Part shown: in pieces, positions 13,923 to 15,980 of the stretch
Numbering within the stretch: position 1 is the stretch's first letter
How the letters are laid out: each line of letters opens with the position of its first letter
DNA from: Clostridia bacterium
GTDB lineage: Bacteria > Bacillota > Clostridia > Christensenellales > Aristaeellaceae
Assembly (NCBI GenBank): GCA_017541205.1
Contig: JAFXZO010000050.1
Coordinates: 1 to 32,335 of the forward strand
DNA: 32,335 nt
Direction of reading: 5' to 3'
Translations under genes and position numbers: made by a program
The notes under the pieces: generated by a model
Database searches by the model: none
What the model was told of the DNA's origin: nothing
The model's input: the letters and a program-made list of their open reading frames with translations, nothing else

Positions 13923-14501
13923 TCAATCGTCCGCCAGCAGGATGCGCCCATCCTCGATGCCGGTAACGACTGCCAAAGACGATAGTTTGACGCCCATGGC
14001 GCGCAGGTTTTTGCCGCCGGGCATGAAGCCCTTTTCGATGCCGATGCCGATGCCGATCACCTCGCACCCCGTCTGGGCACACAGGGCCATCATGCCCTGG
14101 CACGCCTGGCCGTCGGCCAGGAAATCGTCCACGATCAGCACCCGGCTGCCCTGGGGCAGATAGCTCTTGTCCACGCGGATCACGTTTTCGCGTTTGTGGG
14201 TGAAGGAGTAAACCTTGGCCTGCGCTACGTCCGGGCTCTGCACCACGGTGGCCGCTTTCTTGGCGAACACCACCGGCAGATCCCCCAGCGCGCGCGCCGT
14301 GGTCATCGCCAGGGCGATGCCGCTGGCTTCCACCGTCAGCACCAGATCCGGCTTGTCCTCCTGAAAACGCGCGGCGAGTTCTTCGCCCATGCGAAACAGA
14401 AGGCCCGTTTCAATGCGGTGGTTCAAAAACATGTCCACCTTGACGATGTCCTGATCGATCCCCCGGCCCAGCCGGATGATCGCATCCTTCAGCTCCTGCA
14501 T
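13923..14501 (-). CDS. xpt: Xanthine phosphoribosyltransferase
   Basis: A 192-residue type I phosphoribosyltransferase, close to the 194 residues of B. subtilis Xpt. It converts xanthine and PRPP to XMP. Diagnostic segments are L-N-H-R-I near residue 28, L-T-V-E-A-S-G-I-A near 58, and the PRPP loop V-L-I-V-D-D-F-L-A-D-G at about 122-132. The ATG at 14501 has GGAGGAGG upstream; the 32-codon extension to 14597 lies upstream of the promoter. It heads the operon with the nucleoside importer. The 5' leader is only about 50 bases, too short for the purine riboswitch that controls xpt in Bacillus. Confidence 0.93.
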   Translation of the reverse strand: MQELKDAIIRLGRGIDQDIVKVDMFLNHRIETGLLFRMGEELAARFQEDKPDLVLTVEASGIALAMTTARALGDLPVVFAKKAATVVQSPDVAQAKVYSFTHKRENVIRVDKSYLPQGSRVLIVDDFLADGQACQGMMALCAQTGCEVIGIGIGIEKGFMPGGKNLRAMGVKLSSLAVVTGIEDGRILLADD

Positions 14502-14556
14502 GGATCGCGCCTCCTCCAATCGTAAAAAACCGAACATTTTGAGGAAATACAGATTT

Positions 14557-14585
14557 ATTGTACAGAAAAAGCGCGAAAAATGCAA
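14557..14585 (-). promoter_or_regulatory. Vegetative promoter of the xpt-bmp operon
   Basis: On the minus strand TTGCAT (14585-14580), 17-base spacer, TACAAT (14562-14557). The predicted start is near 14550, giving a leader of about 50 bases to the xpt ATG with no recognisable riboswitch. Confidence 0.75.
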
Positions 14586-14708
14586 GCCTTTTTTCAAAAT
14601 ATTCCGTTTGATTTTTTAATATGATGGATATGGGCGGTTTTTTTCCGGACGCTTGTCCAAACTGCCTATTTTCAGCGATTTTTCTTCATGGATTCGGGCA
14701 AAGGGCAT

Positions 14709-14737: not shown

Positions 14738-14775
14738 GGAAAAAACGCTTCCGGGCGAAACCAATGAGGATGGGT

Positions 14776-15933
14776 ATGAAAACACTGATCGAGCTGTACG
14801 ACGAGCAGCCCATTGAAAACGTGCTGGGCGCGGAAATGTTCCGGCCTCAGGAGATGGTGCTCATCTGCCCGCCGGACGTGAAAAAAAACACCGGGCTGCT
14901 CAAAAGCCTGAAAGCCTATTTCAGGCATCGGGGCTGCCCGGTGAAGGTGACCTTTGTTTCCACGAGCCTGCTGGACGCGGTGAAGGTGGAGAACACGCTG
15001 CGCCAGGTGCTGCAAAGCCGCGAGGACTGCGCCATCGATATCAGCGGCGGCAGCGACGCGGCGCTCTTTGCCGCCGGCGCCATCAGCGGACAGACGCCGG
15101 TGTTCACCTACAGCTGGAAAAAGAACACGTTTTTCGAGATCAAAAACGCGCCGTTTGCCCGCGATCTGCCCTGCACCATCCGTCTGAACGCGGAGGCCTG
15201 CTTCCTGATGGCGGGCGGCACGCTGCTTCCCGGGCGCGAGGATAACCGGACGCTCAAAGCCCGCCTGCCGCAAATCGACCGGCTCTTTTCCGTATACTGC
15301 GCGCATCGCCGCGTATGGAACCGCCAGGTGAGCTATTTCCAGAAGCTGGCCGCCGCGGGCGAAAACGGGCTGACCGCCCGGGGCGGCCGCACGGGCAAGG
15401 CCGACCATGGGATGGTCACCGCGGACGAGGGATTGCTCCGGGACCTGGAGGCCGCCGGCCTGATCCGGGCGCTTTCCGTGACGGACGACGAGGTTTCCTT
15501 CCGCTATGCGGACGAAACGGTGCGCTTCTGGCTGCGCGATATGGGCTCCGCGCTCGAGCTCCAGGTCTACCGCGCGTGCCTCGCCGCCGATTGCTTTGAC
15601 GACGTCATCCTCAGCGCGGTGGTCAATTGGAACGCCGACGACGCGCGCCGCAACGCCGTCACCAACGAAATCGACGTGATGGCCGTGCGCGGCATCCAGC
15701 CCGTGTTCATCAGCTGCAAGAGCAGCGAAATCAAAACCGAGGCGCTCAACGAGCTCGCCGTCCTGCGCGATCGCTTCGGCGGCAAGCTCTCCCGCGCTTT
15801 GATCGTCACCTCCGCCTCCCCCGGCAAAAGCCGAAGCGTCATGCGCCGCCGCGCCGCCGAATTGGGCATCGAGGTCGTCGAATGGGACGATCTGCAAACG
15901 GAACGGCTCGCCGAACGGCTGCGGGCGAAATAA
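14776..15933 (+). CDS. Orphan CARF-nuclease, Card1/Can2-like (DUF1887)
   Basis: A 385-residue two-domain protein. Residues 1 to about 125 resemble a CARF domain: strand L-I-E-L-Y, V-L-I-C, V-T-F-V-S-T-S, then I-D-I-S-G-G-S-D-A-A-L-F-A-A (86-99), the glycine-rich ligand loop and following helix. A middle part (about 165-250) looks helical/winged. Residues 255-385 are a PD-(D/E)xK-type nuclease: E261 in L-E-L-Q-V-Y, N-E-I-D300-V-M, then P-V-F-I-S-C-K315. Card1 and Can2 of type III CRISPR systems are activated by cyclic tetra-adenylate and cut DNA and/or RNA. No cas gene or array lies within this window. The start at 14776 follows GAGGA; ATGs at 14764 and 14770 are alternatives. Family call by motif reading. 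Confidence 0.82.
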   Translation: MKTLIELYDEQPIENVLGAEMFRPQEMVLICPPDVKKNTGLLKSLKAYFRHRGCPVKVTFVSTSLLDAVKVENTLRQVLQSREDCAIDISGGSDAALFAAGAISGQTPVFTYSWKKNTFFEIKNAPFARDLPCTIRLNAEACFLMAGGTLLPGREDNRTLKARLPQIDRLFSVYCAHRRVWNRQVSYFQKLAAAGENGLTARGGRTGKADHGMVTADEGLLRDLEAAGLIRALSVTDDEVSFRYADETVRFWLRDMGSALELQVYRACLAADCFDDVILSAVVNWNADDARRNAVTNEIDVMAVRGIQPVFISCKSSEIKTEALNELAVLRDRFGGKLSRALIVTSASPGKSRSVMRRRAAELGIEVVEWDDLQTERLAERLRAK

Positions 15934-15944
15934 CCGTTGAAAAC

Positions 15945-15980
15945 GCCGCGGCGGGCGATGCTGTCCGCCGCGGCTTCCTT
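15945..15980 (+). terminator. Intrinsic terminator after the CARF-nuclease gene
   Basis: GCCGCGGCGG (15945-15954) pairs perfectly with CCGCCGCGGC (15965-15974) around a 10-base loop, followed by TTCCTT. It begins 12 bases after the stop codon. The T-tract is weak, but the stem is very stable. Confidence 0.7.

Follow-up and report, generated by a model that had tools for sequence, protein, structure and literature searches.

Can2 and Card1 (PDB 7BDV and 6XL1) and Cdn1 (9U49) are nucleases of type III CRISPR systems that are activated by cyclic tetra-adenylate (cA4). Ser19, Thr42, Lys99 and Tyr118 of Can2 are the cA4 contacts common to Can1 and Can2 (excerpts of PMC7969007), and the corresponding contacts are said to be conserved throughout the Card1/Can2 clades (excerpts of PMC12825302). 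Orphan proteins of PF09002 (DUF1887) have been noted since 2014 (excerpts of PMC4012209), and one of them, the orphan VC1899 of Vibrio cholerae, is reported to be nearly inactive and may be a relic (excerpts of PMC7969007). A branch of type III-B systems (Cas10-CorA-DEDD/NrN) uses SAM-AMP: the SAM-AMP synthase of Bacteroides fragilis carries D70 and E151 at the positions of an Asn and an Arg in canonical Cas10 (Chi et al. 2023, excerpts of PMC10600005), and CorA, the sensor known for SAM-AMP, is not a CARF nuclease (excerpts of PMC10600005 and PMC12669027).

Here we describe a Card1-like gene in a stretch of 32,335 nucleotides of clostridial DNA; "the window" denotes this whole stretch. Judged from its alignments, the encoded protein is a member of a large acidic-pocket CARF4-PD-(D/E)xK group of Clostridia, a class name that we presume from record titles.

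The window gene and its product

The gene (14776..15933, plus strand) encodes a protein of 385 aa, which the first-pass annotation had described as a nuclease of Card1/Can2-like architecture. Domain and structure comparison bore this out: PADLOC assigned the protein to CARF4, its C-terminal part is a Card1_endonuc domain, and comparison with VC1899, Can2 and Card1 placed the N-terminal domain in the CARF fold and not outside it. The closest structure is that of VC1899 (PDB 1XMX; 17% identity), and a search of NCBIfam with the window protein returned 0 families. Chance resemblance to CARF nucleases was rejected on the basis of the PADLOC assignment and the structure comparison. The protein was modelled as a monomer, and pocket geometry is read from the alignment. 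Residue numbers refer to P0001, which starts two codons upstream of the open reading frame, at 14770.

The N-terminal CARF domain of the PF09002/DUF1887 superfamily comprises residues 3-128 (14776..15153, plus strand). The PD-(D/E)xK nuclease core (15541..15921, plus strand) holds E263, E300-x-D302, S315-C316-K317 and E328. E300 and D302 align with E291 and D293 of VC1899 and with E276 and D278 of Can2 (Can2 names from excerpts of PMC7969007). Together with K317 they are present in 40 of 40 rows of the family and 80 of 80 named rows (the two sets overlap) and in all 35 acidic rows of the class, while the 10 Cas10-linked rows have E300 in 9, D302 in 10 and K317 in 8 cases. The acid position of the ExK motif is occupied by Ser315 in the window protein, and E328 is conserved instead, as in several Cas10-linked members. 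This part of the core lies at window:15712-15753. In 19 rows of the phylum, Ser315 was accompanied by Glu328 in 15 of 15 cases; the other four rows (two of them one protein) have Glu315, with Lys or His at 328. This swap looks like a catalytic acid that has migrated. We also considered a PP-loop ATPase, of which we take an SGG-x-D-like motif to be a signature; this identity was rejected because the motif follows strand 4 of the CARF fold.

No cas gene or CRISPR array was seen near 14776-15933, in agreement with the orphan status proposed earlier, and no defence island was seen around the gene. A terminator-like hairpin of 13 pairs (11 of them G-C) lies at 15945..15974 on the plus strand, starting 12 bases past the last base of the stop codon, although the count of such sites was not above that of shuffled sequences. 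A search for a sigma-70 promoter of the Card1-like gene gave no result. The gene diverges from a phosphoribosyltransferase gene (xpt-like, named by eye; 13923..14597, minus strand), which is the first gene of a nucleoside-uptake operon. At a distance of 8 kb from the nuclease gene, window:4997-6778 encodes a HerA-type helicase (HerA_C, E 5.6e-206) with weak matches to PADLOC HerA models, one of them labelled "Type III coevolved".

Residues of the predicted ligand pocket

In the profile alignment with Can2, D11 of the window protein corresponds to Ser19, P34 to Thr42, D96 to Lys99 and T113 to Tyr118. Thus none of the four contacts that Can1 and Can2 both make with cA4 is retained; Asp, Pro, Asp and Thr stand in their place, and the protein falls outside Card1/Can2 in the strict sense; E12 aligns with Asp20 of Can2, as read from the alignment. 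The replacement was a point absent from the first-pass annotation, and it supports the suggestion made there that the protein may answer to another signal. Within the strand-1 loop of the predicted pocket (E8-N17; 14791..14820, plus strand) E8, D11, P14 and N17 do not vary among the 25 rows of alignment A1. The strand-4 loop (residues 90-97, D-I-S-G-G-S-D-A; 15037..15060, plus strand) contributes D90, G93, G94 and D96, and an acid, D or E, occupies position 96 in all 40 family rows and all 80 named rows (overlapping sets). Pocket residues of the window type are nearly invariant within the family rows.

Outside the family, the 35 rows of the acidic group that other families of the class contribute (a tally that leaves out L299-L302 and L305) have E8 in 35, D11 in 32, D/E at 90 in 34 and D/E at 96 in 27 cases; in the remaining 8 rows position 96 is not acidic. 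The 10 Cas10-linked rows, a tally that leaves out the acidic row of G467, have E8 in none, N90 in all, K96 in 9 and Y113 in all. A further 10 rows of the basic side, counted as non-Cas10-linked, show D/E at 11 in 5 and D90 in 6 cases but neither E8 nor D/E at 96 in any. Acids at positions 11 and 90 are therefore not unique to the acidic group, and according to these alignments the pocket acids are kept widely, not universally, among the relatives. In a tree of 70 rows a well-supported branch (17 rows, 100/97) sets off the Cas10-linked basic members together with their R/P-type relatives, and another (88/98) divides the window family from the remaining labelled groups; midpoint rooting and long branches limit finer claims. 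This tree leaves out L233, L305, L172, L175, L166, L178 and L173 (the last is the same protein as L206); L166 is without the CARF part, and L177 is without a profile match. Another orphan branch of PF09002 (L160, L162, L165 and L169, family f88) has Pro at the Lys99 position, and its four genomes showed no Cas10 match above 28.4 bits.

The replaced residues argue against cA4, and by extension against ordinary cyclic oligoadenylates, as ligand. Since the acidic group has other residues at the positions by which Can2 holds cA4, cA4 made by Cas10 is very unlikely to be the signal of the window protein. The ligand may be positively charged or metal-bridged. A pocket of this kind could also belong to a sensor of an RNA end or a tRNA-related ligand, with a role in nucleic-acid repair or tRNA quality control. 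The CARF domains of RtcR likewise mostly lack a basic residue after strand 4 and are predicted to bind other ligands (excerpts of PMC4012209), and in L291:6576-9059 (G1002) a relative of the acidic group shares one frame, 827 aa from its ATG, with a CCA-adding tRNA nucleotidyltransferase, which suggests a possible functional link to tRNA ends. This fusion is, however, a single case. Among 178 loci the only other matches to the CCA enzyme were in L299 and L300, which come from one genus, encode basic-side proteins and have the match at least 2.5 kb away, and no RNA-repair gene was recognised among the ten proteins of the window neighbourhood. We therefore regard an RNA-end sensor as quite improbable.

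Occurrence with and without Cas10

The genome that contains the window (3.0 Mb in 121 contigs, 84.9% complete) matches the Card1-like gene in full once and weakly twice. The first-pass annotation had offered service to a distant type III system as one possibility and had proposed a genome-wide search for cas10 and for other synthases. This search found no match to Cas10, mCpol or SMODS over the cut-off. The single match to the Cas10 palm model, at 22.3 bits, is below the threshold and may come from a GGDEF protein, so that no cyclase-type Cas10 was found in this genome, whose 84.9% completeness means that the search can miss one; likewise no Cas10 with an acceptor site of the D70/E151 type was found over the cut-off. 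A Cas1 match led to an 8.7-kb contig that was read as cas3-cse1-cse2-cas7e-cas5e-cas6e-cas1-cas2. This type I-E locus (L204, on contig C21) has three repeats ending CCCCACACGCGTGGGGATGAACCG, 61 bases apart, at the contig end; Cas3e and Cas7e were named by PADLOC, and cse1, cse2, cas5e, cas6e and cas2 by eye. Type I-E systems make no cyclic oligoadenylate. In the model searches mCpol and SMODS were each found in 0 of 150 genomes of the family, the window's genome included. The Cas10 model found four Cas10s of the family at 111-122 bits, but a PF09002 search of the phylum failed to return the window's own gene, and the absence of Cas10 is therefore strong, not absolute. An assembly gap as sole cause of the missing Cas10 was rejected because two genomes of the same genus, G094 and G134 (95% and 91% complete), which carry the gene at 73-74% identity, are also without a Cas10 match.

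Of the 150 family genomes 48 carry a Card1-like gene, among them 20 of the 85 that are of high quality. The match spans nearly the whole protein in 44 of the 48, the exceptions being G105, G045 and, with apparently split reading frames of the gene, G002 and G011. Values of dN/dS between 0.06 and 0.24 in six pairs, two of which include the window gene, indicate that the gene is under purifying selection. A protein that has lost its function, as the closeness to the little-active VC1899, the lost cA4 site and the apparently split frames of G002 and G011 might suggest, is unlikely in view of the near-complete matches in 44 carriers, the dN/dS values, the catalytic residues that are invariant in the family rows and the nearly invariant new pocket residues. 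Cas10 exceeded the cut-off in 8 of 150 family genomes and 100 bits in 4. The Card1-like gene and Cas10 are not associated in the family (strong Cas10 in 1 of 48 carriers; Fisher p 1), and G060 combines the gene with a borderline Cas10 match. Cas1 was found in 48 of 150 genomes, eight of which also have the Card1-like gene (one of the eight below the cut-off), and this overlap is below expectation (Fisher p 0.008, kinship ignored). The orphan state is lineage-wide in the family. A divergent second protein type, 29-30% identical to that of the window, was found at L074 (G115) and L075 (G118); in G115 it is the only type found, and G118 has both.

The protein could nevertheless be an ordinary accessory effector that acts in trans with a type III Cas10 encoded at another site of the genome or by related strains. 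Both Card1 and Can2 are type III accessory effectors, and PADLOC puts the window protein in CARF4. One family genome, G101, has the gene and a strong Cas10 on different contigs, the Cas10 locus containing Csm-like genes (type III-A by eye), and in G852, a genome of the class, an acidic member is found on another contig from a Cas10 with cmr genes that carries the same HDR motif as the SAM-AMP-like Cas10s described below, along with an LEL motif assigned by eye. Against this stand the loss of the cA4-contacting residues, the type I-E nature of the CRISPR locus that the window's genome yielded, the lack of a link to Cas10 in the family and the negative link to Cas1 (8 shared of 48 and 48, kinship ignored); moreover, G101 is only 86% complete and has 6% contamination. 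Taken together with the two genomes of the same genus that gave no Cas10 match, these data do not bear out the proposed service to a distant type III system, which we consider unlikely.

The neighbourhoods of close homologues, another comparison proposed at the outset, gave no partner either: 39 of 41 loci held the anchor, and no cluster of neighbour genes was shared by more than four genera. Seven clusters recur at most four genes away in at least two genera and are of common types, by eye an ABC ATPase in four genera, a response regulator in three, and in two genera each two membrane proteins and proteins that resemble a phosphatase, an oxidoreductase and a patatin; the ORF picking used in this comparison was crude, with wrong-strand frames in places.

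Outside the family the picture is the opposite. PF09002 matches (E up to 0.001) were obtained in 19 of 398 phylum genomes; 15 of the 19 have Cas10 over the cut-off and 12 have one that reaches at least 33 bits. Ten of these 12 genomes have a Cas10 match no more than about 8 kb away from the Card1-like gene. A search of the class found relatives in 49 of 391 genomes, the own one included. Cas10 was searched in 47 relative-bearing genomes and three from the order of G467 (n=50), G508 and the own genome being tested separately; it exceeded the cut-off in 10 of the 50 and reached at least 80 bits in 5. Only in G554 and G720 was an over-cut-off Cas10 located on the contig of the Card1-like gene. 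Mobile elements gave no confirmed relative: none of 69 pattern stretches on viral contigs was confirmed as an acidic relative, and neither a plasmid search with the L206 protein nor a phage search with the window protein returned any. L234:4079-6706 (G605) and L235:464-4063 (G644) are long frames of 876 and 1200 aa that end in Card1_endonuc, the longer one with a weak kinase-like stretch below the cut-off, and further long frames with a Card1_endonuc match occur in the same genus.

Acidic members in type III-B operons

The only operon-linked acidic members that we found are those of three III-B operons, in G467, G554 and G720, all from one other family. L206 and L231 comprise cmr1, cas10, cmr3-6, CorA (PADLOC 2.3e-79 in L206) and a DEDD-like protein (weak PADLOC DEDDh match, E 0.007; motif by eye), and the acidic nuclease adjoins CorA. 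L232 has III-B genes and the acidic nuclease, with CorA on another contig of that genome. Of 189 genomes in the order of G467, which was the scope of the CorA search, 12 match the acidic profile, three of them at full length; the others are nuclease-domain matches in longer frames or broken pieces. CorA is present in 4 of the 189, including all three full-length acidic cases (Fisher 3.6e-6, kinship ignored).

In an alignment of N-terminal parts, the Cas10s of G467, G554 and G720 keep both acids of the SAM-AMP signature, and that of G852 does so as read by eye. The Cas10s of G279, G295, G315, G322 and G449 have PN[KR] at this site, and their Card1-like partners have K96 (T96 in G315). The Cas10 acceptor site and the CARF pocket thus appear to change charge together, in five versus four genomes that are not independent by descent. 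This comparison covers only part of the Cas10s, since 13 of 24 scanned frames have neither HDR nor PN[KR]; among these are G298, G412, G317, G444 and G447, where the Card1-like proteins have K96. Two genomes were left out of the support for SAM-AMP: G873, whose Cas10-like frame (PF22335, 38.8 bits) is without a GGDD, GGED or GGEE match, and G946, which has a Cas10 match but a Card1-like protein on the basic side of the tree. The palm of the SAM-AMP-like Cas10 at L206:7638-9278 reads GGED instead of the GGDD of its relatives in L231 and L232.

The charge inversion and the link to III-B operons make a SAM-derived molecule the leading candidate for the ligand, albeit one that we put forward tentatively. 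Between the acidic protein of G467 and ten family rows identity is 20-27%, with 24% for the window protein, and the three CRISPR-linked acidic proteins occupy a different branch of the tree, to which long-branch warnings apply; as they come from one family, they may reflect one event. Given this distance and the lack of a Cas10 match, the orphan's own ligand may differ.

Working model and comparison with known systems

We consider it fairly probable that the window protein is a stand-alone, ligand-gated nuclease whose signal is not cA4. The CARF domain, probably a dimer as in Can2 and Card1, would bind a small molecule, and in the ligand-bound state it would license the metal-dependent PD-(D/E)xK domain, whose activity is predicted from its motif. 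Once licensed, the nuclease would cleave nucleic acid, with slowed growth or death of the cell as the result. The protein probably serves as a one-gene defence or stress effector, the role in defence being suggested by its family. A wider reading, which is conceivable but doubtful, would make the acidic-pocket group a second signalling class of CARF nucleases, one that responds to molecules based on SAM. Members in III-B operons with a SAM-AMP-synthase-like Cas10 would be activated by SAM-AMP, as a second effector beside CorA; members in Cas10-free Clostridia such as the present one would use the same pocket to read SAM or a derivative, for example a collapse of SAM caused by SAM-degrading enzymes of phages.

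To our knowledge, the ligands of CARF domains beyond cyclic-oligoadenylate signalling are mostly not known. The window family combines a conserved pocket whose charge is inverted with an intact nuclease motif, and it has CRISPR-linked relatives next to a cyclase of SAM-AMP type. It thereby gives a specific ligand prediction that is testable with one purified protein and that, if true, would explain the survival of effectors without Cas10.

The window protein shares with Can2, Card1 and Cdn1 the combination of CARF and PD-(D/E)xK domains and the catalytic E-x-D and K. In contrast to these cA4-activated type III nucleases, with Ser/Thr, Thr, Lys and Tyr as cA4 contacts (excerpts of PMC7969007 and PMC12825302), it has Asp, Pro, Asp and Thr, and its genome is without a Cas10 over the cut-off. 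The SAM-AMP branch of type III-B (excerpts of PMC10600005) is comparable in that such operons (L206 and L231) hold acidic Card1-like relatives, as does the III-B operon L232 in a genome with CorA, and in these relatives acids replace the canonical residues in the acceptor site of Cas10 as well as in the CARF pocket; this branch has Cas10, whereas none was found in the genome of the window. No SAM-AMP-activated CARF nuclease is named in the titles and abstract openings of the open-licence papers that searches on SAM-AMP returned, and the literature searches brought up neither the acidic-pocket group nor its spread in Clostridia nor the link to SAM-AMP operons. As far as these sources go, orphan PF09002 proteins were already known from VC1899, and the acidic-pocket group, its spread and the link to SAM-AMP-type operons are apparently new. 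Like VC1899, the window protein is a PF09002 protein without a type III locus and without a cA4 site (comparison values from excerpts of PMC7969007). At the Lys99 position VC1899 has Arg and the window protein Asp, and, set beside the possible relic VC1899, the window gene is widespread and under purifying selection across its whole family.
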